Assembly (NCBI RefSeq): GCF_032854445.1
Contig: NC_088301.1
Location: 19,153,808 to 19,217,807, forward strand
Source of the DNA: Liolophura sinensis
Lineage: Eukaryota; Mollusca; Polyplacophora; Chitonida; Chitonidae
Direction: 5' to 3'
Length of the DNA: 64,000 nt
Shown: piece after piece, positions 12,723-41,200 of the stretch
How positions within the stretch are numbered: position 1 is the first letter of the stretch
How the letters are laid out: every line of letters starts with the position of its first letter
Notes under the pieces: model-generated
Told to the model about the DNA's origin: nothing
Database searches by the model: none
What the model saw: the letters and a program-made list of their open reading frames with translations, nothing else
Program-made: the position numbers and the translations under genes

Positions 12723-12831
12723 ATGGAAATTTTGGATATTACGTCTTTGTTCCTTCTCTTGGTGCCATGTCTGTGCCAAATTTTACCAGCTTTAGCAAAC
12801 ATTCCAAGACCGAGAGGGGTGGCTATTTCAA
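12723..12831 (+). CDS. PRKCSH: PRKCSH exon 1 (signal peptide)
   Basis: Encodes [20 protein letters not shown] then [16 protein letters not shown]. Hydrophobic core at residues 8-20; likely cleavage after Ala25 (PALA|N). RPRGV is the conserved mature N-terminus of the family. An in-frame ATG at 12696 would prepend nine polar residues; I prefer 12723 because it gives a normal signal peptide. Donor A|GTAATG, phase 1. Confidence 0.88.
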
Positions 12832-15800
12832 GTAATGCAATCAGAAGCGTTTTTGGATACTTAGTCAGTCGCCGACTAGCACGTGTTATGTATATGTTAC
12901 AACAACAACACGGGTTAAAGAGTTAAAGGATTTCTAGTGAAATCATAAATGTTGTCTTGCACTATTTATATTCACACACTAAACATTTGTGCTGTACATT
13001 AATGTTACAACAATGCTATGCTTTGTGGCAATACGCTATCAAGCAGTGACGAAATTACAAACAATGCTAGAAAAGACAGTAAAAGTGTTGAACAACTCAG
13101 GCGAATCTACATAAAGCAATCAGTTTATACTACTGAAGCTAGTATCCTCACTCTTGTCTCACAAGATACATATTTGTGGTATATTCAGCGATCACACAGT
13201 AGGCCCATAGTGGTTGAACAAAATGAGGTAAGCTGAGAATTTTCCTATCTGGATTTGGAACCTCCATAGCATTTCCTACATGTCATTTTGTCAACCAGTA
13301 ATCCCTAGTCAAGGGGATCACACTTTTGTTGGACGACAATCGCCTTCCGTTTTGCTCAAATCTGTCAGTTTAAAACCGGAAAGACAGCAAAGCTTGGAAG
13401 AGTCAGCCATGTATCCCTCCTCCATGCTTTGCCAAGTATTTTCCAAGACGGAAACTTTCTGATCCTCAAGATGATAGCTGTTCTTCACATATGAAAATGG
13501 TTCACTGTGCATCATAGACGAAATGTCCACATCATGGAGAATAATCCACTCAGCAAAGGTTAGAGATGGCGAACATGGCAGTCTGTTTGCAGTTTGTTCT
13601 GGGTCGTGAATTAGAAATACTGGGTAATACCATAACTTGAGTCAATTGTGGTCCATTAAAAGTGTGATCCGTGCAGCCAGGAATTGCTGATTGAGAAAAT
13701 TCTTTGTAGAAAATGCTACGAAGGCTTTAAGTACATATAGGAAAAAAACCAACATTACTGGAAGGGACCTCCGTTAGGCGTTAAACCGGTCGCATACAAT
13801 ATTTAATTCATTAGGCTAATGTAGACACAGATAACCTGTGAAATGTCACCTTTTGAGGAAACTTTCACACAGTCCACTAAACTTGCATGGCCCTGTATTA
13901 ATAGCATAGATGATTGGGTTAAACTGTTCTACCTGTCACATGTTAGAGGCAATCAAATTTTTTTACTACTCCAAACAATTCTCCATCTGTACAAATCTGT
14001 CTCAAGGATCTAAATTTATTACTTCTTTCACACAAATATACAAAACAGCAACTGCGGATAAAAATGTTGATTTCTGAGATTGGCTTGATATGCTAACATT
14101 TGACCCAAAATATTGCAGAAATTTCCACAAATGTAATAAAAGACATGTGAAAGGTATTTTAGTTTGAATTTACCCGTTACTTGTAAAAATTACCTGTGTG
14201 GGACATTTGGACCCCCGCAGTTTAATCGCATCATTTGTGGGACCCCAGACACCTTGAGTAAGCAACCTTACAATGCGACTGAAGTTCTCTAACAAAATGC
14301 ATCACACCCTTTACAGCATTCTGATTGTTACTGCGATGCGTCGCAAATGTCCTGTCCCATCTGTTTCATCTCACTATAATGCTGGTTGCTGACGAAATAA
14401 GGGAAATATTCTTGAGTATGGGGTAAAACACCAGTCAACAACCTTATGCACTGAACTTATTTGTTGTTAAACCAATAGACAGTTGATTGTTTTCAGCTGA
14501 TGACAATACCAACCTTAATTAAATGCATTTTCTGCAGTCGAGAAAAAAAAACACATGCATGTAGGGGATAAACCCAAAGCCTGTCCTTTATACCTTTTAA
14601 TGACTTTAATGCAGTCTACTTTAATCTTTTAACATAATTTGTGAATCTTAATTACTTCCAAAAATGTCACACATTGTAGATTCTGTAAGAGAATTATTAT
14701 ATTTTTATTTAATACTTTCGTATTTTTTAGAGGCTGGAGCATATGACCCAACCAAAGATTTTACCTGCTTCGATCATTCGAAAGTTGTCCCATTTGAGTA
14801 TGTCAATGATGACTACTGTGATTGCCCTGACGGGAGTGATGAACCAGGTGAGCATACTCTGTGGTTAGAAAGGTAAGTGTCAGCAACCTGCGGATGGTCG
14901 TGGGTTACCCGAGCCCGGTTTCCTCCCACCTTAATGCTGGCCGCTGTCGTATAAGTGAAATATTCTTGAGTACGGCGCAAAATACAAATCAAATAGAAAG
15001 ATAAGTTTGTCTTATCAGTACCGATAAACAGGTGAGTTTGTCCTGTGATTAGACAGGTGAGTTTATTCTTTGGTTAGAATGGTGAGTTTATTCTGTTTTT
15101 AAACAGGTGAGTTTATTCTGTTTGTGGACAGGTGAGTTTATTTGTTGGTTAGACAGGTGAGTTTATTCTGTAGTTAGATGACTTAGTTTGTTCTGTGGTT
15201 AGACATGTGAGTTTGTCTGTGGTTAGACATGTGAGTTTGTCTTGTGGATAGACAGGTGAGTTTGTCTTGTGGATAGACAGGTCACTTTGTCCTTTGTTTA
15301 GACCGGTGAATTTGTCCTATGGCTAGATTGATGAGTTTGTTTTGTGGGTAGACAGGTGAGTTTGTCCTGTGGTTAGACCAGTGAGTTTATTCCGTTTTAG
15401 ACAGGGGAGTTTGTCATGTCCTTGGACAGGTGAGTTTATTCTGTGGTTAGACATGTGAGTACATGTTTACATTAATATTTGTTTTCTATTGAATCTCTAA
15501 CAGTGAAATAACGGAGTCCGATGAAAATTATGGCCCTCACTAAGCATGCCATTGTCATCTGGCTGGACAGTTCAGTTGGTAGAGCTTAAAGGCTAGTTAT
15601 TGAGTCCCAGTCAAACTAGTATTTTCACTAAAAGTCCTACTGTGATCTGTGAAGAATGTTAGGCAACTAATGTTGGTCACATTTAATATTAAAACATTTA
15701 CATTAGACTAACAATGGAGAAAATTTTATCGTTAAATGATTGTTAAGTTGAGAACTTTCTAAAGCAAAATGTCATTTGTGTCCCTGGAACATGGGGAGTA

Positions 15801-18800
15801 ATATTTTTGAGCAGCGCATTCAAGGCCAATCAAATAAATTTTAAAAAGTATTTGCGAAAGTTGATGAATTGACAGTGTATTGACATGTAATTACTTTTTT
15901 GCAGGTACCTCTGCCTGTCCTAATGGATGGTTCCACTGTACTAATGCCGGACACATTCCCCTGAACATTGTCTCCTCCAGAGTCAACGATGGCATCTGTG
16001 GTATGGTATTGCCCTAGTACATGTACCCTAACTCTTTTACAAGGGTCTCGGTAGCCAAATGTTTAGCATGCCAGCGTGCAGCCTCTCAACCATACAACCA
16101 TTGTGAGTTCAAGTTAGCTCATGCTAGCTTCCTCTCCAGTCATATGTGGGAAGGTGTGACAACAATTTGCTCATGCCCTGACTTTTGTGAGGTTCACTTC
16201 ATATTTCACACATTGTCTTGAAATTTAAGAAATTGAAAACTGGTGTTTTATGTGATTCTTCATATACAAACTGTTTAAAGGACAAGGCCTGTGAATTTTG
16301 ACTGGGTTTCAGTTGTTTCTAGATACGTTTTCACAACACATACCACCGGTGTCCATGTAAATCAGTTTTAACAGAAGTGAGTAATTGAGTAACCCAACAT
16401 CGGAAGTGGCGCATGTGGTGCATGTAGGCAGTGCAACAACAACGTTATACTATACTGTCAGCATGCCTACACTGTCTTGTGATATAATGCTGCTATGTGT
16501 TCTAGCTGTTTGCCAAAATATATATGCATCGGTCTTATAAAAGACTTGTTCCCAACACCTGCATCATTCATACACTGTAGTCTGGGTATCGGTAGTGTTG
16601 TTCACATATAAACCTGCATAAATCCAGATCTTGCCCAGAATGGACCCAGGATGACATTTAAGACTGTAACGTGCTGTGTAGAGTTTGTAATGTTTTGAAT
16701 GTTAATTTGCAAACAGCTAGATGTATATCGCAGCGCGTCAAATCGTTTTAATTAGGCATACACGTACATAGGTTTGAAACATTGGGCTAGACAGCATTTG
16801 ACGTGCTGAGTTTACATTCATACTATAAATCATTTGGTGTATGGTACAGCATTTTATATTGGCTGTATTTCATTAGTGCAGGAAACCTAGCACTAGGAGG
16901 CTTTGGTTTCAGGTCTGCTCGTTCACATTGCACTCGTCAGTCATCTCATAAACTGAATTGACAAACCCATTCCCAGCGTGTTTGAAATTTGTGCTTTAGT
17001 AGTTATGGGTGAGATTGGTGAGATGGGTGGGTTGGACACAGAGTGATTTTAGGTACTCGAATGTGTGGTAAGAAAATGTAATACCTTATTTACAACTTTG
17101 TGTAGGCCCATATGTTAAATATAAAGGTTTTATACATATTATCACTCACCTTTTGGAAATCTTGCTTCCACTGCACTCTATCATTTTATATTTTTTCATC
17201 TGATCGTAAGTTACATGTGCCCTATATCCATAAAACAAATTGCTGGGAACTGATAATTTCAATATAAAATCTCTCAGTAAAGTGACTAACCTTGTCTCAT
17301 GGTGATTGAGAAATGAAAAAAAAGAAAGAGTACAACAGCGATAATTCCTATACAATTGTCAGATATCGTGCGATTTGGTAGAATAAGTGTTGACAATGTT
17401 TTGTTCAAATGTTCAAATGACGTTTGTTAAAATTACTGACACTAAGTGCCTACATGTGCCTTGTTGAATGACATAAAAACAACAGCTATGCAGCTAGTGT
17501 ATATTAAGCCAAGTAAACCGTACAGGGCTTCCGCCAGCAAAAATAATCAGCTATCATAAGACAGTGTACTATAACGCCTGTAGCTGTATGTAGGCCTACA
17601 AGATCGGTTAGACATTATGAGGAAGATGTGAGTTTCTGTATAAACAGCAATTCATACATTTCATACAGTACACACCCCTTGATGGATGTACTTGTAAGTA
17701 CAAGTAAATGTTCGATATAAGGGAAGCATATATATTTTAGCAAATATCTACGGCACGGCTCTGCCTTATTGCCAGACTCTGAGAGCAGACAGTAGTATTA
17801 TGTTGTTGTTGTACTGTTTATATGCACCACATGCGTCACTTCCGTTTTAGGGTTAATTAATCACTCGCTTATATTAGAACTGATTTACTTGGGCAACGAT
17901 TTTATGTTTATGAAAGGGCATCTAGAAACAACTGAAACCCAGTCAAAATTCATTGGTCTTCGCAAGATTCAAGATACAGCGCTATGATGGCTGAGTGTTG
18001 TCTCTTTGGTGACGCTCCATGCTAATTTTAACATGAGGTTACACATAGAATAATTAAAAAGAATTAAATTATGAATTGAACTTATGAATTATGTTCCTGG
18101 GTGTGTTTGGGTCCCAATATTGCAAAAATAATGATGTCCTGCTTTTAGATGGAGTGTGATGTAAACACCATCATTGCCATGTTAAAAGATAGGCATGTCA
18201 TGCATGTAGCCCTACTGCACCATTAAAGTAGCGACGTCATTTTGCACTGGGACGTCGTTCTGTTGTCATAATGACATAACTGTACGTGGGAAGGTCTGTC
18301 AGCAACCTGCGGATGGCCGTGCGTTTCCCCCCGGGTTTCCACTCGCCATAATGCTGGCTGCCATCGTATAAGTGAAATATTCTTGAGTAGGGCGTAAAAC
18401 ACCAATCAAATAAATAAATAAATCAATAATGACGTAACTCAGTAACAGCGTATTAAAGTGGATCCAGTTTTTTAGGGGTGAATCAGAATATCTCCTTGTC
18501 TCATGCCTATGTTCGTATGTTCAATTTAACCTACATGTATGTTTTTTTCCTGTTCAGATTGCTGTGATGGTTCAGATGAGTATGAGGGCATCATTACCTG
18601 TTCCAATACCTGCAAGTAAGTGCCATGTAAATCAGATCAGAGTTAAAGAAAAAGGCGACATAGAATTTAAATAAGCATCAGGTGAATGCGGGGTGAGGGA
18701 ACTCGCCCTCATATTCGTGCTACCAGCCGCAACCACGTGATGGAAGCCTACATGCTGTCGACCAATAGTAGTAATCTTAAGTGTAGCCTGCTGTAAGAAA

Positions 18801-21800
18801 TTGACGTGTTTGTTTGGGACATTCTTGAACATTGCACTACACTCATGAAATGGACACTTCCTCTACTGTTTTATATACATGAGGGGGAGGGGATTCCAGC
18901 AACCTATGGGAGGTCGTGGGTATCCCCTGGGCTCTGTCTGGTTTCCTCCCACCAGGCCTGACCACCATTGTATAAGTAAATTATTCTTGAGTACGGCATA
19001 AAACACCAGTAAAATAAATATATTGATGAGACAATGTATTGCACTTGAGGATGGCCACGAAGCTACAGCTATGATGTATCTCTGTGTGTGCCTGCATGCA
19101 TTGTTCACATGAAATTTTTCTGTAGCGGAATTTTTGAGAACATCATTGAAGTAATCTTGTACTCTTAGGTATTCCAATATTAGAAGCTGTGTGGAGTGGG
19201 AAAACTGAAAACCTGTGTTCACCTCAAATATTTAAATGCTTTTACCATAATCCTTCAATCTTTTCACATGTTTGCAAGGTTATTATTCAAGCATATTCTT
19301 AAGGCTTTATTCTGTGTGGAGTGATAAGATTATACTTTTGGTGAAACCCTGAAATTGGCCAGTCCAACCAAAGTAGTTTTGTCTCCAAAATTTCGTTATA
19401 AATGTGCATAAATTACTCTGAAAGTTGCTCTTCATATGCGAAAAGATTGAGGAATTAAGGTAAACTGTGTGGAAACAAATGTATAAACTATGATATTGTA
19501 TTTTGACTTTTTTCCACTGTTTTAAAATTCTTGTGCATGTGCTTTTTGGAATTCAGGAGATTTAAAATGACATATTTAAATCTAAATTGATTTTTTAATG
19601 AATCTTTCCTGAATAAAGATAGTGGATTTATATCTGTCCATGTACAATCATAGACATATGCAAATAAACCTTTGTGTGATACAGAGAATTGGGCAAACAG
19701 GCAAGGGAAGAGGCAGAGAAAATGAAAATATTAGTGGACCAAGCTATGAAAGTGAAAGTGGATTATATAGAGCAAGGCAAGAAAGCCAAGGAGGAGAAAA
19801 AGGTTTGTTGGAGTTTTAGATATGTATGCTTTATTCATTTTTCTTTAATGCTTTTGTTGATGACGAGGCCTTTCGTTAACTTGTTAGACTTTTAGCAAAG
19901 GCATTTTCATTTTGTTACCAGCTTTAGAAATGTGAAAAAATGGCATGATGGTAACAGCGGTTTGTCTGAGTACAAGTGCATGTGACGTATGCACAATGAG
20001 CAGTGATGATCTCCAAGTCTCGTTCGTATGACTTGTTTGATTACAAGTATTACCTGAGCTCATTAAGTTAGAAACAAACACTTTAAAAACAGAAGTCCCC
20101 AGTCTTGAACTTTAATATGGGTTGTTGAAGAGGTCTGAGAATATTTCTTTACAGGAGAGCTTACAAGGCAAAAAGAACACGGATGTGAATTCTTGTAAAA
20201 TATATCCAGTTTGAAATTAAGAGGCAGGGAAAATGAAGATATTGGTAGAACAGGTTATGAAGTGAAAAGGCAATTTTCAGATTTCTCCTGTTTGTAGATC
20301 CTTGCCAATGAGCAGTTGATGGCACTTGCATGTATGGTACTAGCTCAGTGCTTTATTTGTATGTAAAGACCTACTGTAGTATACTTCACACTTTTCCTTC
20401 TAGAATCAAACTTTTGATCAGGGGTGCGTATTATTCAGTGCTCAGGAAATCTGAAAACCAGAAGCAAATATGGCGACACAACGCTGCTGGCATTTACTCT
20501 AAAAAAAATGTTATAAAACAAACAACAAAAGAAATGAATTCATGATATATAGCTGAGCTTTTTTAAAGCGAATTGGCTTAACACATATTTGACATCAAAC
20601 CAAGGTCACGTCAAAGCCTCAAGTAGGTCTTACTTCAGGTCACTTAGTAGGAAATCACCTGATATAATTCTTTTGATGTCCACGTCCTTGTCATCATTTT
20701 AATGTAGTCCTTGTTCATACTCTCAGTACCCTAACCTGCATAACAGATGAGTTATGTCCCTTTCTTGTTCTGGTTCTGTGTCACTGGCAGATAATAGCTC
20801 ATTGTCCCACAAAATGTTGTCTTCGGTACCATCCCGCTCATCAGAAATGCTGCATTTCTTGAAGGACTACACAGTGATGGCTGTGTCCAACTGTTCCCAG
20901 GCTGTCAGAATCCATTCACATAGGTGTGGCAGCTCAGGCTTTTACCTCTTCACCCTTTTGGTGAAAGTATGGCTGTCTCTGGCCGACCAATCGGTCCAAA
21001 ATTTCACCTTCATCGGCTTGTTCACGGAGACATCCAGGAGCTGCTGCATAGAGCTCATCCCACCGGGTGTATAATAGCAACTGTTGTGTTCTGGGCGATC
21101 TTTAACTTTTGTTTGATATTGTCTCTATGGCAGCGAAATGCATCAAGATCTAGCAAACTCTTACGGCATTGTAGCCCTCTGGGCCGTTTGCCCCACTCAT
21201 TAACCAACCAATCTGTCATCATGCTGTCATCAAACCAACTGTTTTCTTGTACTTCACAATAATGCCTTTGGGAAAGTTCTTTTTTGGCATTGTCTTTCTT
21301 TTGAACAATACAAAAGGGTGAAGTTTGCCTCCATCAGCCGTACCGGCCAACATAATGGTGAAGTAATTTTTTTCATTACCAGTCGTTTTGATTGACATCT
21401 GATCGGCATTCCCTATTTGGCCAGACGAATGGTAATTATTTTTTCATTGCCGGATCATAAAATGTTGAAAGTTGAACAACCTCTCTTAGTAATCAGCAGG
21501 TAGTTTCTGGGCAACTTTTGTCCTCATGAATTTAAAAACCCATGACACAGAGGCCTTGAAATTCTATGCACCAGGGGTTATCTTCGCTAGGGAGAGAGTC
21601 TTGATCTGTATTTCTGTGGTGGAGACTTTCCTTGTACCGTTCGTCACAAACTCCACAAGGGCTTGTTCAGTTCTGGGAAAATGCGGCAACTGACTTCTGC
21701 TCATGTGCTTTTTGCTAGAATTTTGCTTTCTGCCAGTTCGACATTAGCTTCAGACGTAGAATATTCTCTCCCCGCTGCTCGGTTCCCACGTGCTTCTGCG

Positions 21801-22040
21801 TGATGCTTATCTACAAGTTTTTCGCGTGTGGTGAATGTATATCGTCGTGGCATGATTCGCTTTTTTTAACAGAGAAGCCAATAACTTAGAAAGCTTTTAT
21901 AAGGATACAGCAAACCAAATGATGATCAGTGCAGCTGCTATCTTGTTTAGCACTTGCAGATTGGTATAGTGAATTTTACGCATAAACTAAGGAAGTTATC
22001 TCTAAATAGAACAGAACATGCACAATACATTATTTACATG

Positions 22041-22093
<53 letters not shown>

Positions 22094-23231
22094 GGTATGG
22101 CTTTATCATGCAACCAGCGAGGTACAGCACTGTGGAGTGTCCCTGTGTGTCAGCATGCAGCACTCAATGTTGTTTCAACAGTTTGCCTCTGATCATGGCT
22201 GGACAGAGGTCATGTACACAGCTACAGATGTTTTTCCAGAATACTTACGGCCAAGGTGACTATGCGAATAATACATGAATGCGAAGTATGCTAGTGTATT
22301 CACGGTATAATCTTTGATCAACATTGCGTGCAAATCTCTTTGCCCGATGCAGGAATGTTGTGGCCAGTAGTTGGCTCTTTATCAATGTGCCCGTTGGTTC
22401 CCTCTGGTGTGTTACAAAAATGAATGAAAAATTCTCAAGTACCACAAAAAGTTCAGATGTAATAAATAAATAACGCAAATAATTCATGATTGTAATATAT
22501 TCCTTCATAGATGATCACATTATTATTTGTCTCTTAAAGCCTTTTCATTTTTACTATTTTGTCTTTTATTTTAATAAATTACTGACATTATTCTTCAAGA
22601 AACTTTGGAAAGTGGCATTTCTGTAACAGCATTTTGTTTGTACATGTGATGTAAATGCAATGAGCAGTGATGATCCCCAAGTCTCGTTCGTATGACTTCA
22701 CTACATGTAGCTTGATTACATCAAGTGTTATCTGAGCTCATTAAGGCGTTTATCGAAATAAAGGTTCAAAAAAATTATCCGTTGTTGAGCCTTCATAGGG
22801 GTTCTTCTAGGGACCTGAGAAAGTGAAAAAATATTTTTTTACTTCTCTGCTCTGGCTGTTTCTGGATCCTTGGTGACAATAAACAGTCAGTTTTAACTTT
22901 TAGGTTATTTGCAGTGTTTTACGTTAGTGTGTGGTGACCTCGTTTTGGATTAAACATCAAACGGATTTCAACATCAAACCAGTGGCTTACTCTGGTTTAA
23001 TTTTTGAGTGTGGCATTAAACAACAATCAAATAAATAAATAAATTTGCAGAATGATTTTCTTGTCTGATGATCATGCATAGCTGTTTCTTGAGGACTTTC
23101 ATCTTTCTGGGACTTTCTCTCCAAAAAAAGAAATGGAAGTGTTCAGTGTTTCAGAATATACCTATGTTGATTAAGTGCAGAATTGTGATGCACTACATTG
23201 TATAGTCAGTGATCATTGTCTGTTAGTTTCA

Positions 23232-23272
<41 letters not shown>

Positions 23273-26200
23273 TTTATATATACTGTATATACATGTAAAG
23301 ACTTTTTGTGTGAATATGTGTATACATGAGGGACTCGAGGAAGATTGGTTTTGTAAATTTATTTATTTATTTGATTGGTGTTTTAAGCCTTACTAAAGAA
23401 TATTTCACTTATACCACGGCAGCCAGCATTATGGTGAGAGCAAACCGGGCAGAACCCGGGGGAAACCCATGACCATAGGCAGGTTGCTGGCAAATCGTCC
23501 CAATTATGGCCGGACGGTTATGTAAATAATTGATCTCTCTCAGAAAACAAATTATTATTATTTATTATTATTATTATTATTATTAGACTAGTCTTCAGCT
23601 ACTGCAGTTTGGAGTGTTAAAATAAAAGCAACCTGTGCTTACACAACACAGATTAATTCAGATATTTCCAGATGTGGAAGAGTTCAATATGAACTTGAAA
23701 TGCATCAGACCCAACTATATAATGGTGAAGGTGAGAAAATACTGTTAAACCAGCGATAAATTCATGTTAGCTTATATGGGAGGCTGTGCTCCTAGGGACT
23801 GTTGTTGTCTTGGCAGTAAACAGTCCTGGTAATCAGGTTAACTTGTTGTTGTCGGGGTGGGGGATAACGCAAGATACAAAACCATTGAACAGGCAAGAGA
23901 TTGGCGATAGGTATGCACAAGCCAGCCCAGTAACTTCCTGTTTTGATGAGGTTGGTAGTAGACATGAACAGTGAGCCGTGATGATCACCAAGTCTCGTTC
24001 GTATGACTCACGATGATTACATCAATTATGATCTGAGCTTACTGTAATGTTTCACAATCCTCAAAGTCTTTAAGATAATTTAAAATATAAACCAGGAAAG
24101 ATGTTTTCTAACAGTAGCATTCCAATAGCCAGCTAGCGGAAAATCTTCAGCCTGTAGCAATTTACTATCCTTTGTCTGCTTGAAGTGGAGAGTTACTTGT
24201 AGCTTAAAACTAGCAAACCCCAGGCATAACACAAGTAAACTCCTGTCTTGCCACAAGCAAACTGCATGCACGCTAATGTATGCCACCAGGATATTGGGAC
24301 AGAATTCAGTGTATTGTCTTTTCTTTGTACTGTATTTCTCTTTATTTACTTACTTATATATATAGTTATTTATTTATTTTTTTGTTAAAAAGGCAAGACT
24401 GGTCCAACTTGAAGGTGATCGAGACAAAATGGATGCAAAGAGAAATGACTTAGAAGGTAAATTTGTCTTCATTGGTCACATACGCTGTACTTCAGTTCAG
24501 CTGGCTTTATAACTTTTCGTTCATCTCAAGATAATTTTAAAATACTTTCATAAATTATTAAACTTGGGTTGTATTTGGGACCTTTGTCAGCTCAGAGAAG
24601 TAAATAAATATGTTTGATATAGGCATTGTGAGAAGTGGAGATGGGATTGTTGTAATTTTACTTTGTTACACACAAATTGACGTTGTATTTAATGGTTTGT
24701 CACTAAAGTGGACTTGTTAATGACATTGATCATTTTAACTTAGTGGCAGCAAGCTTACTGCATTAAATATCTGTTTCATTGAAATTCTGCATTGGAAATC
24801 ATACTCCCATTCCTAATAACTTACAGTAAAAACAATAGAAAAAAATTTAATCGAAACTGAAAACACCAAGCAGAAAGTGTTTTCAAAATGATGCAGTTTT
24901 ATTGACCATGAAAAGCACCTGCAACTCAAACTTCACAAGACATTTGTCCACGCCTGGGTGCTAATTTGACCCACGGCTGCTGTGTTGCTTTTACCAACAA
25001 CTGTGGCTGTCCTACCTGTTGGAAGTATTGAATACAAATCAATTTGCTTGGTATGGTGGGTTGACATGTACCTGTCTCATTTCATATGTGCAGTCACCGT
25101 GGCCAAAGTCGGTATCACGCCAGTGTGGCACAATAACTCAGGAGCCTCTCACCAATGCGATCGCTGTGAGTTCAAGTCCAGCTCATGCTGGCTTCCTCTC
25201 CGGCCGTACGTGGGAAGGTCTTGCAGCAACCACTGGGTGGTTGTGGGTTTCATCCGGGCTCTGCCCGGTTTGCTCCCACCATAATGCTGGCCACCGTTGT
25301 ATAAGTGAAATATTTTTGAGCGTGGCATAAAACACCCATCAAATAAATCATGCTGGCTTCCTGTCTGGTCGTATGATCTTGCAGCAACATGCAGATGGTC
25401 CTGGGTCTCTCCCACCACTAAGCTGGCTGCCGTCATATAAATATAGTGAAATATTCTTTAGTACGACGTAAAACAGCAATGAAATAGACATGAATATATG
25501 CATTCAAGTGTGTATTTGTGCGACCTGGCTGTGTACACATTATGACAAAATCGGGCCAATTTTACATGTGTCCAGCCACAACATGCAATCATGTTAACAG
25601 GCATAAAGTGACAAAATGTGACAAATTTATCAACAGGGAAGGACAAAATCTGGCCAGTTTTACATGTGTCCAGCCACAACATGCAATCCTGTTAACAGGC
25701 ATAAAGTGACAAAATGTGACAAATTTGTCAACAGGGAAGGACAAAATCTGGCCAGTTTTACATGCATCCAGCCACAACATGCAATGATGTTAACAGGCAT
25801 AAAGTGACAAAATGTGACAAATTTAGCAACATGGAAGGACAAAATCTGGCCAGTTTTACATGCATCCAGCCACAACATGTGATCATGTTAACAGGCATAA
25901 AGTGACAAAATGTGACAAATTTATCAACAGGGAAGGACAAAATCTGGCCAGTTTTACATGTGTCCAGCCACAACATGCAGTGATGTTAACAGGCATAAAG
26001 TGACAAAATGTGACAAATTTATCAACAGGGAAGGACAAAATCTGGCCAGTTTTACATGCATCCAGCCACAACATGCAATCATGTTAACAGGCATAAAGTG
26101 ACAAAATGTGACAAATTTATCAACAGGGAAGGACAAAATCTGGCCAGTTTTACATGTGTCCAGCCACAACATGCAATCATGTTAACAGGCATAAAGTGAC

Positions 26201-29200
26201 AAAATGTGACAAATTTGTCAACAGGGAAGGACAAAATCTGGCCAGTTTTACATGCATCCAGCCACAACATGCAATGATGTTAACAGGCATAAAGTGACAA
26301 AATGTGACAAATTTATCAACAGGGAAGGACAAAATCTGGCCAGTTTTACATGTGTCCAGCCACAACATGTGATCATGTTAACAGGCATAAAGTGACAAAA
26401 TGTGACAAATTTAGCAACAGGGAAGGACAAAATCTGGCCAGTTTTACATGCGTACAGTCACAACATGTGATCATATTAACAGGCATAAAGTGACAAAATG
26501 TGACAAATTTTGCAACAGGGAAGGACAAAATCTGGCCAGTTTTACATGTGTACAGTCACAACATGCGATCATGTTAACAGGCATAAAGTGACAAAATGTG
26601 ACAAATTTTGCAACAGGGAAGGACAAAATCTGGCCAGTTTAACATGCGTAGAGTCACAACATGTGATCATGTTAACAGGCATAAAGTGACAAAATGTGAC
26701 AAATTTAACAACATGGAAGGACAAAATCTGGCCAGTTTTACATGCGTACAGTCACAACATGTTAACAGGCATAAAGTGACAAAATGTGACAAATTTAGCA
26801 ACATGGAGTTACAAAATCTGGCCAATTTTACACGTATAAACAAGCAAAACGTGACAAATTTAGCAACATGGATTGACCAGATTTGGCCAATTTTACAAGC
26901 ATAAACAAACAAAACGTAGCAATGTGGAGTGACAGTCTGGCCAATTTTACAAGCATGAACAAGCAAAATGTGACAAATTTAACATATGCGACATCCATGA
27001 TATTTTACAAAATTTGAAACTGATGTACGGGAGTGTCAAATACTTGGTGTGACGATGTCCGATTTTACCTGGTGTTCCCAGAAAGTGTCGGTAACCAAAC
27101 AGGATATGTACAACTGTTGTGGGATTACTGATTGTCACAAAATATAAAATACTAATCATGTATTAAGTATAATAATTATTTTTTCAGCCAGGAAGAATGA
27201 GGCAGAAGCTCCAGAGAAAGAGGCCAAGGACAGACACCAAGCTGCCTGGGAAGGTAATACAGGGATTATTCTGTGGAATAGAAAACTGTGAGCGGGGGCC
27301 TCCGTGGCCAAGGTGGTTAGCATACCAGCAGGGCACATTAACCAAGTGGCGCTCTCACCAGTGTGGCTGTGAGTTCAAATCCAGTTCATGCTGGCTTCCC
27401 CTCCAGTCATACGTGGGAAGGTCTGCTTGCAACCTGCAAAGTGTCATGGGTTTCCCCCAGGCTGTGCCCGGTTTCCTCTTAGATGTACCATTATGCCCCC
27501 GGGCTCTGCCCAGTTTCCTCCTACCATAACGCTGGCCGTCGTCGTATAAATGAAATATTTTTGAGTACAGCATAAAACGCCAGTCTGGTGCATGAATACT
27601 ACTCCTTGTGCCAAACATAAACATGTACTGACTGTATTGTAAATTTATCTACTTTCAGCTGAGAAGGCAAAACGACAGTCTGAAAAGGAGCAGAGCAAAG
27701 CCGAGGCTGCGTTTAATGAAATGGATTTGAATAAGGACAATGTGTAAGTTATGAGTAAGGACAGGGTGTAAGTTATGAATTAGGATGATATGTAAGTTAT
27801 GAGTAAGGACAGGGTATAAGTTATAAATTAGGGCGATATGTAAGTTATGAGTAAGGACAGGGTGTAAGTTATGAATAAGGACAATGTGTAAGTTATGAGT
27901 AAGGACAGGGTGTAAGTTATAAATTAGGGCGATATGTAAGTTATGAGTAAGGACAGGGTGTAAGTTATGAATAAGGACAATGTGTAAGTTATGAGTAAGG
28001 ACAGGGTGTAAGTTATGAATTAGGACGATATGTAAGTTATGAGTAAGGACAGGGTGTAAGTTATTAATTAGGGCGATATGTAAGTTATGAGTAAGGACAG
28101 GGTGTAAGTTATGAATTAGGACGATATGTAAGTTATGAGTAAGGACAGGGTATAAGTTATGAATAAGGACAATGTGTAAGTTATGAGTAAGGACAGGGTG
28201 TAAGTTATGAATTAGGACGATATGTAAGTTATGAGTAAGGACAGGGTGTAAGTTATGAATTAGGACGATATGTAAGTTATGAGTAAGGACAGGGTGTAAG
28301 TTATGAATTAGGACGATATGTAAGTTATGAGTAAGGACAGGGTATAAGTTATGAATTAGGACGATATGTAAGTTATGAGTAAGGACAGGGTGTAAGTTAT
28401 AAATTAGGGCGATATGTAAGTTATGAGTAAGGACAGGGTGTAAGTTATGAATAAGGACAATGTGTAAGTTATGAGTAAGGACAGGGTGTAAGTTATGAAT
28501 TAGGACGATATGTAAGTTATGAGTAAGGACAGGGTGTAAGTTATTAATTAGGGCGATATGTAAGTTATGAGTAAGGACAGGGTGTAAGTTATGAATTAGG
28601 ACGATATGTAAGTTATGAGTAAGGACAGGGTGTAAGTTATTAATTAGGGCGATATGTAAGTTATGAGTAAGGACAGGGTGTAAGTTATGAATTAGGACGA
28701 TATGTAAGTTATGAGTAAGGACAGGGTGTAAGTTATGAATTAGGACGATATGTAAGTTATGAGTAAGGACAGGGTGTAAGTTATGAATTAGGACGATATG
28801 TAAGTTATGAGTAAGGACAGGGTATAAGTTATGAATTAGGACGATATGTAAGTTATGAGTAAGGACAGGGTGTAAGTTATGAATTAGGACGATATGTAAG
28901 TTATGAGTAAGGACAGGGTGTAAGTTATGAATAAGGACAATGTGTAAGTTATGAGTAAGGACAGGGTGTAAGTTATGAATTAGGACGATATGTAAGTTAT
29001 GAGTAAGGACAGGGTATAAGTTATGAATTAGGACGATATGTAAGTTATGAGTAAGGACAGGGTATAAGTTATGAATTAGGACGATATGTAAGTTATGAGT
29101 AAGGACAGGGTGTAAGTTATGAATTAGGACGATATGTAAGTTATGAGTAAGGACAGGGTATAAGTTATGAATTAGGACGATATGTAAGTTATGAGTAAGG

Positions 29201-32200
29201 ACAGGGTGTAAGTTATGAATTAGGACGATATGTAAGTTATGAGTAAGGACAGGGTATAAGTTATGAATTAGGACGATATGTAAGTTATGAGTAAGGACAG
29301 GGTATAAGTTATGAATTAGGACGATATGTAAGTTATGAGTAAGGACAGGGTGTAAGTTATGAATTAGGACGATATGTAAGTTATGAATCGGGACAATGTG
29401 TAAGTTATGAATCAGGACGATGTGTAAGTTATGAATCAGGACGATGTGTAAGTTATGAATCGGGACAATGTGTAAGTTATGAATAAGGACAGTATGTAAA
29501 TTCTGAATCGGGACAGTATGTAAGATATTAATAAGGACAATGTACTTTATGAATATGGACAATTTGCACGTTATGAATATGAACAGTATGCATGTTGTGG
29601 ATAAGGACTATATGCACATTATGAGTAAGGACAATATAAGCTATTAATAAGGACAATATAAGCTATTAATAAGGACAGTATAAGCTATAAATAAGGACAA
29701 TATAAGCTATTAATAAGAACAATCCTTGGCAAATTCAGCCCTAAACTTCAGATAGTACAAGTTGTAAGGACAGAAGTCTAATGCTTAGATAATGTCACTG
29801 AGAGTCTATCACGACACTGAGAGGACTAATAGCAAAGCAGTGAAGTTGACACTGAAAACCCCCGGACGTACTCTGAAAAAGAAAGCTGTGTGTTGTATGA
29901 CAGGCCTTGTAATTTGTGAGACAGACTTTGGAGGGGGAGGGGGAATAAACAAGAGAGCTGCCAGGCAGGATCCCTTGTTCCTCTTCCCTGTTCCCCCTTC
30001 CCTTTGCCCAGTTCCAAAAAATTACAAAGAAGTTTGCATAGTTTTCATTTCATTCATGTGTATTTGCCCAGGAAACACAAACTCCAGCATTATGACAAAC
30101 TTTGATTCCTGAATAACTATTTCGGTTACAAAGATTCTTTTACATGGGGCAATCAGGATTGTCCATTTTTTATGGTTTACCACAAGTTTACAGTGAACTC
30201 TAAAGCATTGGGATCTATATGTACTCCTTGAGAAATCATAAGGATTGTGGATTTGACTTAAAATAGTTTATTTTCAGCCTGGACAGGGGAGAAAGATTGA
30301 CCAGTGTGATTTTGGTTGACAAAGATCATGACAATAAAATATCAGGGAAAGAATTAAAGGTATTGGGGATAATGTGATGGAGAAATCTCAAGTCTTCTTC
30401 CCCTGGTCTGTAGGAGAAAGCTTGTGATGACTCACTCTTCCCATCTTGTTCCTTTTATTTTTTAGATTCACTGTTTAGATCCAGATATATATATATATAT
30501 ATATATGTGTGTAACCACAGGCATGATATTTATTCCATGCAGTAGCACCCTTCCCTCCCATTTTTAAGTTGCCACAATGCCCATGTTAGTTGACATTCTT
30601 GTAAGTGAAAGAATTTGAAGGCAGTGTAATGGGGCCCTCGGTCTAATGGGGCCCTCGGACTAATGGGGCCCAACAGCTCACACTGTTGAGGCACTCGCTG
30701 ACTGCGATTCGTTGCGTTTGGCTGCAGCTTTGTGTGAAGAGCTTTGTCAGGTACCTTGTGAACAGTTGTTCACTCTGAGAACTTAGAATTAAATGCTGCA
30801 TTGAGGGCGGCATTAAATACCAATCAAATAAATTTATACTATCAGTAGTAATGTGATAGTGTGACGCAAATGGTGTGCGGAGATATGCTAGAGTTTCGGG
30901 ACGAACATGACAAACTGTACGCAGGGATTAATTGGATCAAATTTTTGTGTGTTCAAAAGGATTTACCAAGTGCATATCGTTGTGTTTTTTTGGAACGGGT
31001 TGGTGTCATTTTTCAAGCACAAGGTGTATATTAGTGAATGCTTTCCACCCCTGTGGCCGCCTATCCTCACCAAACCTTTTCTATCCTCACCAGATGTTTT
31101 CTATCCTTGTTGCACATTTTCAGCGTCGATTTACTAGAGGTGGTGGCTCACACAGAATTTGATATTGATGGAAATGGAGTAGTGTCTGATGATGAAGCTA
31201 AGGTATGATCAGTTTTATTTGTTCATTTCCATGTTTTTTCCTCATGGGTTGCAGTTGAAATCAGTGGTACCTGTATCAATAATTTAATCATTAAACATGC
31301 CAAAAAAAGAACGTGTTCAGAAATTGTAGTGACATAAACAAACTGATTTTCAGTTTGTTGTGTATTCGTTAACATGAATAATTTTTTGAAAAATGTTACC
31401 AGTTGAAATTAAACTGGGAGGAGCATTGGATTTTCCACATTAATTTAGGTTGATGCTCACGTATATGCATAACAAAGCAGAATGCAAAATTATGGCCCAG
31501 GTTAATTCTCTCAATTAACATCCTGATTTTGATACAGGAATATATGGAGGAGCAAGATCAAGTCGATTTGACAACTTTTGTTGAGAAAATGTGGCCCAGT
31601 ATAAAGGATATTTATAGACCATTATCAGAAGCAAAACCCCCAGGTACAGAATCTCCAGAAGACCAGGAAGTGGCGCCACCTGCAGGAGATATCCCTCCTC
31701 CTGAAGACATTAAAGAGGAGGTAAATCATTAACACTTTCCTAGGAACAGTTTACATGTGCACCAGTTTGTCTGCATCGTTTATTTCATATTCTGCACATT
31801 CTTGAGTTTCACAAGCATTTTTTCTTTATTATTGTTATTATGATTATTATTATTTCAGCTTTTTTCAGTTTTTATCTCACAATTTTCAGAGAAAAATGGG
31901 GGTGCTGTTGTGATTTTGTTTTCTTATTTAATACCTCTGTTACTTTTAGTGGTAAGAACGTTGAAATAATGAATTGTGTAATGTTTTCTCTGTTTATGTG
32001 GGAAAACGTTGGCTCAGGTATGCTGGAAATATGTTCACGGTTGATTCTTTGTTCTTGTATCAAGTAATAAAAACACTTAAAGGAGGTTGAGTTAAGGATG
32101 TATGAAACAATAATGTATTTTGAAAAATCAGGGTCAGATATTATGGCGCGGGGGATAACTTTGAAACTTATGCCTATGTACAGTATGTGTGTACATGTAT

Positions 32201-35200
32201 GTTTCACGTCTCGGTACGTTATACGGACTCTTTGCAGAGACTAAATGATGCTACTTTCAACTTGTGATATGTTCGCTCAGAAATATTGAGAGAAATGATT
32301 TTCCTTGCTAGTGCTTCAAAGTATTTGAGGATAAATGATTTGAGGTAAACTCGAAAGAAAGGAGAAACGCCTGTATGTTTTTTACAAATGAACTTGCATG
32401 AGGAGAGGTAGACCAGAGTACTGCAGCTCTCCATCCTTACATAGTATCATCCAGAGTGTACACGTATTAAGAATGTGTTTACTAAGATATACATTTAAGT
32501 GCATGAATCCTGTTACCTAGACAACTGGTCTGACATGACCTGACCTGACCTGACCTGACCTGACCTGACCTGACCTGACCTGACCAGTTTCCCTACCTGA
32601 TACTCTCCCTTGTACATAGACTCTGACAGCATGGACTCGTCTTGCCACAAGAAGACACAGTATATAGTACACACTCCTAAGGACTCAGAGTCATAATATG
32701 ACTGGAAAATTGTTAAGTAAAGTCCAAGCATACATACATACATACATATGCGTACCCTTACCTACGGGTAGCGTATGCATGTGGCCGCTTCGGTGGCCCA
32801 ATTGTTAGAGCTTCTGCATCAGCATTGGGAGAGACAGGATGAAACCTGCAGCGGGTGATGCCAGAGCCTTTAAAAATGGTGTTTGTTGCTGCTGCGCTTG
32901 GTGTTTAGCCCTGAGAGATTAGAGGAAAGAAACAGGAGTGGTTGGCTCGGTGTCTGTATAGTGTCACTGGGTGGGGTGTCATGTCTGGTGTCTTCGGCAT
33001 GATACTTCAGTGTTAGCATGGCATGGACCCTTCTAAATCTGATATACAAGGAGACCAAGTATATGTAAAATAATTAAACATGTACAACGTAGAGAGTAAA
33101 ACCAGGCAACTGGTGAAATACGGCCTCTTGTCAGTTTACCTCAGCCAGGGTTTTATTCTAACTGGTCATTAAATGCATAAATAGTAGTAATTGACACCCC
33201 CCCCCCCCCCCTCCCCCCCCCTCCCATCCAGCACCATAGCGTAAGCAGAATTTGGTAAAAAAGAATGGGATAATAATTGTAATTCATTAGATGTCACTGG
33301 TGTAGAAATACTCAAAATGCAGTGGTGTCATCACATTTAACATACATGTACAAGCACATTAAAACAATGCAAAGGAACCTGGCCTTGGGGATGCTTAGTC
33401 CACCAGCAAAACCCTGGTGTATGCAGGAATACAATATAATTAAAGACGTACAGCATAGAAAATAAAATCAGAGCATCGACGACAGTGTGGTAGCTGGAAA
33501 ATGTTCACGTGTAATCAGTGTGCACACACCTTATGGCTTCTCATCATCATATGACTAAAAAATTGCGATGTTAAACCCCAGTCATGTATACATGTATATA
33601 TATATGCATGTGCATTAACCCAGAAACCTGTAAAACTTTTGTGTTTTTTTCTGATTTAAGTTTTAAAAAATAGTCAATATAGAAGGTCAGAGGCTGATTT
33701 GTAAAGCAGACAGAGTGATATGATACTCACAGCAACACACAAACAGCGCAAAATGGTCCTGTGTTCACCTGTCGCATGCAGGGGAAATTAGCTTGTGGCA
33801 GGTTGAATGCATATGTGCCTGTTGCTTATGGTATGTAAGAAATCTGCTTTAAACAATGCATTTCATGAGAATTAAAGATCATTAAGATAGCTTTTCGATG
33901 ATCAAAATTACAACTTAGATAAGTATATGAGCATTGTCCTTTTGGCATAGTTTGCTCCTGACCGTAAGACGTGAATTAACAATTTTGCAGGTGAATAATG
34001 AATTGATGTCATAAGTGAGCTGTTGTCATGACAACCCATACAAAATGTATGGGTTGTGCAGAGGTTTGACATTCATTCCATTTGGTTCACAAGATATTTT
34101 GTAGTTCAGGCTGACAATTGCATATAGGAATTGCTAATAATATGGGATAATAGACCAATAAGACAGTGGCGGAGGCGCGTGCGCGTGCGCATTGAATTTC
34201 ATTATACCTGGGGCTTCTTAGTCAGCAGAGCAAAACTGTTAAGATTGCTAAATAATGAATGGCAGTACGTCATTGTGTACAAATGTCAGTGAAAAGTTCT
34301 TGAGATTAGAGCTTTAATAATAATCAAATAAAACTATAAACAAATAGAAAGTCGAACAGAACGTCAGATATATAAATAAATACTAAATCAAGAATCCAAC
34401 CAATCAGATTATTACTTGCATGAATATGCCCTGTGGAATTTTAAGCAATGAGAATGCTTGAATGAGTTTATGTTGCATAGTGCTGCATATGGCTTGTATT
34501 AGCATAATTAATTGCATGAGTTCTAAGCAGAAGTATGCCCTGGATTTATTTGATTAATTGGGGCCTCCGTGGCCAAAGGGGTTAGCACGCTAGAACTTCG
34601 CAATGATCCAAGCCCCTCCCACCAATGAGGTTGATGTAAGTTCAATTCCAGCTCATGCTGGCTTCCTCTCCAGCCATACGTGGGAACGTCAGCCAGCAAT
34701 CTGCTGAAGGTTGTGGGTTTTCCCTGGGCTCTGCCTGGTTTCCACCCCCATAATGCTGTATGCCATTTTATAAGTGAAATATTCTTGAGTACATCATAAG
34801 ACACCAATTAAATAAATAAAATATCTGATCAATAAATGTTACCTCAGAAATTCTGGTGATGAAATACAACTTTAAAATACTTCGAACCAAAACAGAAGAA
34901 CTCCCACCTGATATTTCTTGATATATTCTTCAGTTAGTACTTTTATCTCATTCATGAAGCACTCCTTAGATTCTTTGCCTTTCCTATATTCCTTAATTTT
35001 CACGCATTTTTCTTTCCTCTGGTTAACACTCCATCTGAGTTTATATGCTTGTTGTTGTGGTTTAATTTTATATGAACAGTTTTATTATTTGTCTGTGATA
35101 ACTTTCATGTTGTTTTACCTGTATATTGATGTCCTTTGTGAACTGTCTATAGTGTGTCGTTTAAAACACCTGTACACCTGTGGATAGGGATGATTTTAGT

Positions 35201-38200
35201 AACTGTATACATATGACAGTGTGGAGACTTAGTGTAAATATGATATTTTTGATTAAGATGCCCTGATTAATAAACTATTAAAATTTGTTAAATTTGAATA
35301 CTCCAATCCTTCTGACAAGCACACCACAATTGCAGTTGTTTCATCAGTTTTACTAGCAAGTGTTTCTAACATCAGAATGATGGAGAGAAATTGCATCACC
35401 TAAGAACATGTGAAATAGGGCTGTTAAGAATGAGTTTTCGTGCTTTGAAGTCACAACAGAGTTCATGATCTTCCACAGTGTGAAAAACGCTCTCACCAGA
35501 AAGTATATCTCATATGTGAAAAAGAAATTCAGTCAATACTAATAAAATAACAAAAGATGCATTGTGAAAAACCTATCATTTCCACTTCTGACACCAAATT
35601 TTGCATTGAAGAATCAGTTTATTGAGCCCACTTCTGACACCCAAGTTTGGCATTATTCAATCAGTTTATGCCACGCACTTCTGGCACCATACATGTATTT
35701 TGCCATGTGCAACCAGACTTTATAAATACCACTTCTGACACCAAATTTTGGTGTATGTTAGGTACCTCCTCCACCAACCTTTGATGATGAGGATGATGAT
35801 GAGGAAGATGATGAAGACGATGAATATGATGATGAACATTATTCTGATGAACATGATGAGTTTAGAGAGGAAGTGAGTAACAGCAAATTTTGTGGAGTGA
35901 CCTTTGCTGTCATTGTGAAAGCTTATAATGTGCTAGGGTATGGTCATCCTGCAGTATTTTAGATGTGCTTCCAGTGCCTTTTTAAGGACTTTCCTGCCAA
36001 TTCCATCCCCACCTATAATCTCTTCTGTCCTCATCAAATTAATTTAACTGTATTTCACCTGAAGATTGATTTTTAAAAACGCATTTGTATATGCAATAAA
36101 GCGTCTTTTTGGTGCCAACACTTTTTTAAGTATTGCTGATAAAAAATCAGTCACAAAAGAGAACTGGTGAGTCACCCAACAAGCCAAATGAGTCACTTGT
36201 AAAATGGTAAACTTCAGGTGAAATACAGCATACTGATGTTCTTTTCCCTGCGATCATTTCAGTTTCACTTTCACTTTACTGTACGTCGACTATTTATGTT
36301 ATTCTCCCCTGCATTATTGCAGCTATACAAACTTTCTCTGCTGCTTTTATTTCATTATTCTCATATACAGCAATCATTATCATACACAAGTGTTAGTTCA
36401 CCAAACTATAAACTTCCTCAAAATTACAGTTGTACTAATATTGTTCTCTCTGTGGGAACAGGCAGTTGTGTCTTCAGTTGTCATTCATAATTTCCTTCCA
36501 GTCATTGTGGGCAGTATGTCTGGTTTTTAGTTTACCTATTTAAAGTACAGCAGAGGCTTACATTATACCCAACTCCTCAGCATCAATCAGTTTTATCAAT
36601 GTTGAGTTATTGAAATGTTAAGTGTGATACAAGTGTCTCGGAATGTACAGCACACATTGAGCCAAAGTTCTTGCATACATTTAGAGCCCGATAATATGAA
36701 GGTCTTCCATTGTTTTCGTATTAATTACTGTAAATTACAAAATTCAGGATGGTCTCTTGTGTATTGGGATCGATGGTAAAGGCAAAGAGAAAACACTAAA
36801 ATGAAGTGTATATTAGGTGAAAGACCATTAAACACTGTCTATGAACATAGCTGAATTTATCCAATCGAGTAGAATGGTTTTAAAACATCATAATCTACGG
36901 TGGCCTGTAGTGACCCAGAGGGTACCATTGACATCACATCCATGTTTTTTCCTTGGAATAGTTTGAACCAAATAGGTCCATTTGGTGAGTGCATTCATAG
37001 ATTACAAGTATACAATTATAATGATGAAACCAAGTAATGTATGTATGCTAAGTGGCAAAATCCAGACATGACATCACTGGTCTGGATAGGGTCAGGTAAA
37101 GTATCCACAGAATCAAAAGTTCCAAATGCAGTTTTCTTGGTTGAAAAAAATCTAAAAAAAAAGTCCTAATATTTTTTTGACAGTTTTTATTGGGCTTTCA
37201 TCTATACTTATTGTACGGTTTTCTTTGCCTTTAAGGTAAATGTTGAAGGAAGTATCTCAGAGAAAACTTTATGTAGTACCTGTATTTATATGCTCAGGTT
37301 TTGCATACATATGTTAGTGCAATATAACAAAGGGCATATTTCGTCATTGGTTCCCTGTGTATTTTATTAAAAAATTCAGTACTTGGCCTCATTTTTTTTT
37401 TCAGAATCCATATATTATGTATAATATATTCACATGAAGACCTGCTCTCATGTGTTTTCTACAGACGAGCTTTTTGATAACCATGTCATTAAATCCATTT
37501 TTAATAGTTCTTTATTAATGTGTATTATGATATTTAAGGCTCTGTATCTAACCTTAGGGGCATCATCAATGGGTTTTGCAAGAAAATAATCTAACAGCCT
37601 TGAGTAAAATTCCTCTAAATATGCCTTCTAACCTTCATTTGTGGCTTTTCATGAAGTGTTTCTGCTTTCCTGTAAAACTGTGAACGTTTTAAATTACTGA
37701 TTTATGGGCGACTCTTGTTGGTTTTTAATGTTATGTACATGAATTTATGTCAGAGTTACCCTAGTTCTTGTAAAATTTGGCACACCTGGTCTTCTCATTT
37801 TAACCGATATACCTGTATATGTAATTGTAGCAGGAATATGGTTTCTTTTTTCTCATATGGTTAGACCAAAAATCTAATGAACAACATACTCATATCTTTA
37901 CTTTCCCAAAAAGCTGGTGAAAAAAAATGTAACATTGTACTTTCAACACCACTAAAATCTGTTACAAAAATAAGAAGAATTAGGGGTATGTTTATTTGAC
38001 CTGATTGACCCATGGAGTGCAGCTTACCTCTATAAGATCTTACCTCCGTGTCATCTGCTGACTAATAAGTATACATTTACATCATTCCACCATTTATTGT
38101 TCAGGTGATTTCATAAGTTTTGCTCACCCTAATTACTCGACTGTTTCGCCAATGAAAATCTTTCAGTTATGCACTTTTTTAATTTGCTTTAGCAACAGAA

Positions 38201-41200
38201 CGACACTGGTTAGGCTGACAATTTCAGGACTTAGCAAAAAGAACAATTTTATCAGTCTGCGCAAAATCATTTTCTCAGAATACAGTTGAATAAAGACCTC
38301 GCAAACACGTGCAAAGGGTGAAGAATCACAATAGTATCATGGCCACATCATGTAGATGTAGACATGTACAGGGGAATATTTTTTTTTTTTTTTTTTTTTT
38401 AAATGTGTTGCTGTCAGGCTACATTTGACGGAGTTATAGCCCTTTCCATTGCAAATCATTGGAAAATAACCTTGTCTTGAAGTCTAAACATAAACACATT
38501 GTTCTTGAATGTGAGAATTATCCTATCCGTGATAAAGTAATGATTACCATAGCTGAAATTGTATAAAGTTTTACCTCCAGGCTGTTTGTAGGTCATGTTA
38601 ATGTGTTTTTAATGTGAGAAGATATGCTCAAGTGGAATTTTGGATTGGAGATTATGCAGGAAATCTTCAACCTTTTCAACTTCAAAGCATTTTTTTCTGT
38701 GGAATATGTGCATGCATTCATTATTGTTTGTGATTTTGGTATGTTTGTGTCACTAATTACAGATTATTTCTCTACACCCCATAGTTCTCAGAATGTTTCA
38801 AAATATTGCTCACAGTGTCGAAAAATTAGGGTAAATGTCATCACCTGATGATCTCTGTCTCTCACCTGTTGTTGTCACATGTTATGTGACGTCGGTTCAA
38901 TCCCAGCATAGGACATTGAATTTGGCTGGAGATCACCTGCAGTACGACATACATGAAGGTCACATGTGGAAGAGATTTTGCCTGTGATTAATTCAGCAAG
39001 TTTTGATGATTTACTACTGCAGCTGCACCACAATGCTGGAAGTCGTTGGTATGGGGTAAAAAAACAATGAAATACTGCATCTGTTGTTCTTGTTTTCCCA
39101 GACCAGAAAGCTGGTGGCCATCATACTAGGTGAAACCTGTGAAGTGTATGGTCAAAAAAAGTATACTAATTTTGGACTTTAATAAATTTTCCCACATTTC
39201 TGCTCGTTAATTAATCGAAGGTGGAGAGGAGGGGTAGTTACGTCATCAGTTCTTGCTGTAATTACCAATAGAAAGTTGTAAAGCAATCTTTAACATGCAC
39301 ACATGACTTAGGATTTCAGTGGTTGCATTTTAGATTTTTGGGGTGACATTGAAAATCTGAATATGATCATGGTACTTGTTTGACGGAAGACTAACTTGTG
39401 ACATTTATTGCCGCTTGCAGGCACGAGGGGATGATGGGAAGAAGGAAGAGGCTGAGGAGGAGAAAATGCCTGATTATAACGAAGAAACCAAATTACTGAT
39501 CCAAGGTAACACTGCTTTTCACTACTCCATCACACCTGTCCAAAATGAAATTTTTCCTTGTTCACGAACAAGATACTTATTAGTTTTGTGATAATGGGTT
39601 TAAAAGCTCGATATACATTGATATTACCATCTGTATACAATAAAGTCACACTGGAAGTCCTTTTCACAAAATAATTTTAAGATATATTCTTCTAATTGTA
39701 ATCCAAGCAGCATGAAATCAATAAAAGTTTAACCACTGAGTCTGTGCTGCAGTTGCTGCAATTTCAGCCTAGTTTGTGCATCCATCGACTAAGTTCAAAA
39801 TTGCATCTTTCTGAAAATAAAGGCTTACTAAAATTATGAAACCCTGGTGAAATATTTGAAGGAAAATGGCAGAAATAGCATCTTCAGAACTTCATACTCA
39901 CATGAAGATGTCTACTAGGACAGAATCTAATGAAGGTGCCATGTTTAAAGATGCCATGTTTAAAGATGTAGTTATGACCTTTGACTTTTTTCAATTTGTT
40001 ATTTCACATTTATGGTTTTCAGAGCTGAGTCAGAAAAGCTTTATTTCCGATAAAAATCCATCCACTGTTATTATTTTTCAGTTGCTGATGAAGCAAGGAA
40101 TAATTTTAATGAGGCCGATGAAGAACTGAAAAAGTTAGACAAAGAAATTAGGTGAGTGGTTATATTATACATCTTTCAATAATAGTTTAATCTGTATCTT
40201 TGCATGAGTGAGCTGGGTACATGCAGATGTTTGCCTTTATAGGTGGAATCTTCTCCACTGAATGTGGGTCATATTGCTTTATGTTTTTCATCTTTTTCTG
40301 TCTGATAGTTACACTATATTTCATTGAACAAGTCTGAATCCTGTACTCAGTGTTGGTCAAGTCTACAAGATCGCCACGATATGGCTGAAATATTGCCGAT
40401 GTGGCGTTAAGCCATAATCATTCATTCAAGTTTACAAGATTTGAAAAAAAGCTCCTTCAGTTTGCCCTTCAGCAGAACTGCCACGGCCTTGACCTTTAAA
40501 TAAGGAGGTTTGTAAGGCACATTGTGAAATTCTTGTAAAGGTATTAAACATGGTATGTAAATGGTATGTAAATGTAAATAAAAGTAGGAGTAAAGGGTTA
40601 CACTGATTGGCACAGGTGACCCAGGAGTCTCTCAAAAATGCGGTCATTGTGAGTTTATGTCCAGCTTCCTCTCCGGGCATATGTGGGAAGGTCTTGCAGC
40701 AGTGTGTAGATAGTCGTGGGGTTCCCTGGGCTCTGCCCAGTTTCCTTCCATGTAGACACCAGACGTGACACCTCACCCAATCACATTACACTGACACAGC
40801 TCTGTTTCCTGCTCAAACTTCTCAATGCTGAGCACCAAACAAGGCAGCAACAAGTACCATTTTTTTTTTAAGTGTTTTGTATGACACCACCCAGGTTTTG
40901 ATCCAAGGTCTCCTGACTTCAAGACGGACGCATCCGGTTCGGGAGCGGTAGATCCAGGGTCAGTCCTGGGTCAAGTCAAACCTAAGACTTCAAAAGAGGA
41001 TTTAAAAAAGAATTAATCTTGCACAAATACACCGTCATATAAGTGAAATATTCTTTAGCAGAGCCTAAAACACCAATAAAATAAATAAATAAATCATAAA
41101 CAAATATAGGAATTTTTCCACGAAATATCTTTTTCCCGATCGGAGGTGTTTATACTTGTTTGTTTTATGCAATACAGGTATGTACAATATGCCCAAGTAC

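Follow-up and report, generated by a model that had tools for sequence, protein, structure and literature searches.

A candidate pair of alternative EF-hand exons in the glucosidase II beta gene (PRKCSH) of the chiton Liolophura sinensis

Part of an EF-hand can be exchanged by alternative exons, as described for exons 19a and 19b of alpha-actinin 1 (ACTN1) (PMC4435478, PMC9741552), and EF-hand splicing of actinins is reported to be limited to chordates (PMC9177970). The latter study names actinins, P/Q-type calcium channels and OGDH as duplicated-exon cases among calcium-binding proteins. In OGDH, exons 4a and 4b are mutually exclusive and alter a calcium-binding motif, with one of the forms being calcium-insensitive (PMC7969005). 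Splice variants have been described for mammalian PRKCSH as well, including one of seven residues in the alpha-binding region, and among the variants described in these reports we found no swap of an EF-hand pair (PMC12732852, PMC10987803). EF-hand swapping by alternative exons is already known from alpha-actinin 1, and what is new here is a candidate pair, exons 9a and 9b, in PRKCSH. A first-pass annotation of the locus had known of no such pair in this gene; among the openly accessible papers listed in literature searches, likewise no title or abstract opening describes one, and the word PRKCSH is absent from the main texts of PMC5740500, PMC9741552, PMC9177970 and PMC7969005.

The chiton pair resembles ACTN1 in that part of an EF-hand would be exchanged through alternative exons. 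Unlike ACTN1, of which one form has lost calcium binding and a brain form holds both exons, both chiton forms keep their ligands, as judged from the sequence, and double inclusion breaks the frame. The exons of the P/Q-type calcium channel are called 37a and 37b; they belong to a plasma-membrane channel, whereas PRKCSH is a soluble ER protein. The likeness to OGDH is that a calcium-binding motif changes with the choice between mutually exclusive exons, exclusivity in the chiton being predicted from the frame. The OGDH exons are, however, not an EF-hand pair, and in birds and mammals distant branch points keep them exclusive, the intron measuring 118-131 nt (PMC7969005); the intron between 9a and 9b has 764 nt.

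The window, i.e., the whole stretch of DNA that was analysed, spans 64 kb of the Liolophura sinensis assembly. The genome of "Liolophura japonica" has been published as 609.5 Mb in 632 scaffolds, together with RNA-seq of five tissues, namely digestive gland, foot, gill, gonad, and heart (PMC11068029); the species identity in that paper is the subject of a later correction (PMC12441733), and the name L. sinensis used here follows NCBI. The DNA is from a mollusc, as first proposed. The identification of the gene as PRKCSH (glucosidase II beta) was confirmed, as the joined exons of the window reproduce exactly its top protein match, NCBI "glucosidase 2 subunit beta-like isoform X2 [Liolophura sinensis]" (P0002). 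The coding span, on the plus strand, opens with the ATG of exon 1 and closes with the stop codon of the final exon (12723..43252). The P0002 exons, which include 9b and leave out 35762-35872, are exons 1-5 (12723-12831, 14731-14847, 15905-16000, 18558-18615, and 19685-19802), exons 6-8 (24393-24456, 27188-27253, and 27659-27743), 9b (31124-31202), E10 (31538-31720), and, 3' of E10, 39421-39505, 40082-40151, 41690-41854, 42610-42709, and 43103-43252. In Pfam, P0002 has the domains PF12999 (155.2 bits), PF13015 (80.9), and PF07915 (39.1), every score lying above its own cut-off. The last exon ends in HVEL, an ER-retention-like C-terminus. HDEL is usual in the PRKCSH family, and we take the HVEL that the chiton protein has instead to act like it in ER retention.

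We searched the assembly (609,464,459 bases, 632 contigs) for further copies and scored the best genome candidates. Fifteen of 18 PRKCSH matches fall inside the window's gene, which is the only full PRKCSH gene found among them, and the 3 matches elsewhere are all partial, so that a second PRKCSH gene as source was rejected. Partial PRKCSH-like matches include C8:41500962-41501279, covering residues 398-502 at 38% identity within a 319-codon open frame, and C3:10595947-10597528, covering residues 54-82 (66%) and 93-117 (72%).

The candidate pair lies on the plus strand between exon 8 and a common downstream exon, E10 (31538..31720; exon 11 in the first-pass annotation). Exon 8 (27659..27743) covers the first six positions of EF loop 1 and holds two bases of the codon for position 7, ending in ...DLNKDN plus these two bases at the donor TGT/GTAAGT. 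Exon 9a (30278..30359, 82 nt), the candidate alternative exon, finishes loop 1 (DLNKDNVLDRGE) and goes on to code for loop 2. Exon 9b (31124..31202, 79 nt), with DLNKDNVVDLLE in loop 1 and a loop 2 of its own, is the standard exon, since P0002 is reproduced letter for letter when 9b is used. They supply 28 and 27 residues, respectively, and either joins E10 in frame, both forms coming together again at EYMEE. The coordinates, lengths, phases, and AG/GT borders originally assigned to the two exons were all reproduced, as was the claim that each finishes loop 1 and carries a whole loop 2. The predicted frame logic also stood up: 9a alone or 9b alone keeps the gene open between exon 8 and E10, giving 515 aa with 9a and 514 with 9b (552 and 551 when the acidic exon at 35762-35872 is added), while translation of the joined exons meets its first stop at codon 278 with both exons included and at codon 249 with both skipped. 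The both-exon stop precedes six exon junctions and the neither-exon stop five. As gene anatomy, the exon pair is real. That it is a "duplicated" pair, as had been proposed, is made plausible by position, phase, and length, but support from the sequences themselves is scant (8 of 27 residues and 33 of 81 bases identical).

Exon 9a is no chance frame. Taking as candidates all phase-compatible AG..GT segments of 40-150 nt in the 64-kb window, we obtained 9883 on the plus strand. An open frame is present in 2010 of them, loop 1 is completed by 42 of the open ones, and just 2 of those 42 go on to a full loop 2, namely 9a and 9b. None of the 7431 minus-strand segments completes loop 1 and carries a full loop 2, and no such segment arose in 150 simulated 64-kb windows (Markov-1). 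A looser pattern again gave only 9a and 9b in the window, against a simulated mean of 0.17 per window (100 windows, highest 5); the chance test is post hoc, because both EF patterns were written with the exons already seen.

A canonical EF loop has acidic or polar ligands at positions 1, 3, and 5 and E at position 12, and its position 8 is hydrophobic; glycine at position 6 is usual, but binding does not need it. Both loops of the 9a form show this ligand pattern as a sequence motif. In an alignment with 119 homologs (P0003-P0121, the best 120 of 5248 significant matches minus P0002), 9a retains ligand-type residues at five positions of loop 2 (1, 3, 5, 9, and 12); position 12 of loop 1 is still E, and position 8 is hydrophobic in loop 1 and loop 2 alike. 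Around these, nine aligned columns hold a 9a residue found in none of the 119 homologs. One of the nine is loop 2 position 6, which is glycine in 116 of the 119 homologs and N in 9a; at loop 1 position 6 the canonical glycine is absent from both forms, each having N. The net charge of loop 2 is -1 in 9a and -5 in 9b, and the link between the loops of 9a is one residue longer, without the conserved H..EF. With Pfam EF-hand_1 (cut-off 25.4), the spliced modules score 33.4 bits for 9a (two stretches) and 31.3 for 9b. When drift from 9b was simulated, which presupposes that 9a descends from a 9b-like exon, the frame survived together with the two loops in 0.045% of the trials at a base identity of 60%, in 0.005% at 50%, and in 0 of 20,000 at 45%; the observed identity is 41%. 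The retention of ligands while PRKCSH-specific residues around them are gone suggests selection for calcium binding in 9a, since selection for calcium binding alone would be expected to leave such a pattern.

We consider it probable that 9a and 9b form a long-standing alternative pair in chiton PRKCSH, each productive mRNA holding one of the two. Exon 8 would give the first half of EF loop 1, with 9a or 9b giving the remainder, the link, and loop 2, and the swap would exchange the calcium-binding module of glucosidase II beta with the other parts of the protein unaltered. Exon 9a would be spliced into mRNA, most likely as a minor or tissue-limited form, and regulators would choose between the exons. 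Exclusivity would come mainly from the frame: given early stops ahead of six and five junctions, mRNAs with both exons or neither are expected to be removed by nonsense-mediated decay. The charge of loop 2 and the changes in the link suggest that 9a alters calcium affinity and module contacts. The animal could, in other words, swap a calcium-binding module via splicing. To our knowledge, the role of the PRKCSH EF-hands is unsettled. If 9a is used, a direct comparison between two natural forms could show what these EF-hands do, and splicing could switch the calcium sensing of a widely conserved ER quality-control protein. In that case an ER protein of a mollusc would also have an EF-hand-swapping exon pair, beyond the actinin, channel, and OGDH genes that PMC9177970 gives as examples.

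The sole protein of this species that we compared, P0002, contains 9b, which counts against use of 9a. It fits the strongest rival explanation, in which 9a once served as an alternative exon but has dropped out of splicing, being silent now and intact only because this happened recently, so that one working exon 9 is left. We regard this as unlikely, though far from negligible. Among the 119 homologs (again the best 120 of 5248 matches minus P0002), none has a 9a-type exon and all 119 are of the 9b type, which also speaks for silence, and the extra residue of 9a is found in none of them. The homologs were clustered at 90% and the swap concerns only 27 residues, so that 9a forms could hide within a cluster; the P0002 cluster has a second member, probably the NCBI isoform X1 of this gene, which may carry 9a. 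The best 120 matches include no other named chiton, and the next best identity is 57%. In a region search with 9a, P0002 was the one protein of 15 candidates with E up to 0.001; a fragment-length search gave 201 candidates, none of them at E up to 10. A further point for a silent exon is the weaker donor of 9a. Scored with matrices built from the 14 acceptors and 13 donors of chiton PRKCSH, it reaches 5.0 compared to 8.4 for 9b, and the two rank 8th and 1st among the 117 GT sites of the region. The acceptor of 9a is the stronger one (11.5 versus 6.0), and the splice-site scores thus do not decide whether 9a is used. A cryptic acceptor at 30466 outscores the acceptors of both exons, and an AG 11 nt upstream of the 9a acceptor could act as a competing site. 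What argues against the silent exon is that frame, both splice borders, and ligands are intact in 9a despite divergence to 33 of 81 identical bases.

The intron between 9a and 9b measures 764 nt, which makes crowding unlikely as a cause of exclusivity, and we rejected it as enforcer; a minor-spliceosome intron was rejected as well, the donors GTATTG and GTATGA being ordinary-looking. The AG-free stretch upstream of 9b is 30 nt and gives no pointer to a distant branch point. Looping-out of 9a or of 9b by RNA pairing between the flanking introns was discarded, as the duplex energy of the pairing was matched by 57 of 60 and 60 of 60 shuffles and its local complementarity by 17 of 200 and 50 of 200, respectively. 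Pairing that would loop out both exons was matched in energy by 1 of 60 shuffles, but it offers no exon choice, besides being equalled in local complementarity by 78 of 200, and was dropped. No known structured RNA matched at the Rfam gathering score within the window. With crowding, branch point, and pairing finding no support, frame plus decay would be the remaining evident enforcer.

A tandem array of 48 bp x 41.3, each repeat being two 24-bp units, occupies 27728..29703 on the plus strand and begins 16 bases inside exon 8. Its 24-bp units copy the 3' end of exon 8 together with the donor (AATAAGGACAATGT/GTAAGTTATG and variants), and since the exon-derived part of the array lies in the conserved EF loop, exon 8 most likely seeded the array. 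There are 64 GTAAGT in these approximately 2 kb, the exon 8 donor included, and 17 in the remainder of the window's plus strand; their spacing is 24 in 54 intervals and 48 in 9. Every one of the 63 distal GTAAGT is preceded by an in-frame stop. The array may be a passive expansion. In a more far-reaching and quite doubtful reading, PRKCSH would be a tunable ER calcium module with two functional EF-hand pairs, its output or exon choice being further set by a donor array of variable length, in which each of some sixty copies of the exon 8 donor would lead to an early stop if used. If true, this would tie a minisatellite to the splicing control of glycoprotein quality control; a literature search for the donor array turned up nothing. 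The gene has a second intronic tandem array at 25544-26832 (98 bp x 13.2).

Returning to the origin of 9a, we find it improbable that the exon was captured from another EF-hand gene, to serve now as an alternative exon or go unused, rather than being a duplicate of 9b. The similarity between 9a and 9b is near-random, in keeping with capture: shuffled codons are expected to share 26.7 of 81 bases, and 6.2% of shuffles are as high as the observed 33 (41%), so that the sequence hardly supports descent from a 9b-like exon, while position, phase, and length do support it. An exon profile of the family (119 homologs) gives 51.2 bits for 9b and 0.8 for 9a, and the spliced 9a module weakly matches calmodulin-type hands (best calmodulin row E 0.17), as a captured exon might. 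On the other hand, 9a shares with 9b its phases and the cut inside loop 1, and nearly its length, and its best solved-structure matches are to glucosidase 2 subunit beta (E 2.9e-5), a score to which the common flanks add. Least credible is 9a as a poison exon that lowers PRKCSH output through inclusion alongside 9b, for although the resulting stop at codon 278 with six junctions downstream would serve this end, a poison exon has no need to preserve either the open frame or the complete pair of EF loops.

The acidic in-frame exon at 35762-35872 is skipped by P0002. Among the proteins of other molluscs and of Lingula there are pairs that an insert at a comparable site sets apart, and inclusion or skipping of an exon there may therefore be old. 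Among 14 protein pairs, compared with a view to whether the second member of the P0002 cluster carries 9a, single-insert pairs whose length ratio is 0.928-0.929 (those of Sinanodonta and Lingula) fall in separate clusters, and the corresponding ratio for the chiton acidic-exon form is 0.933.
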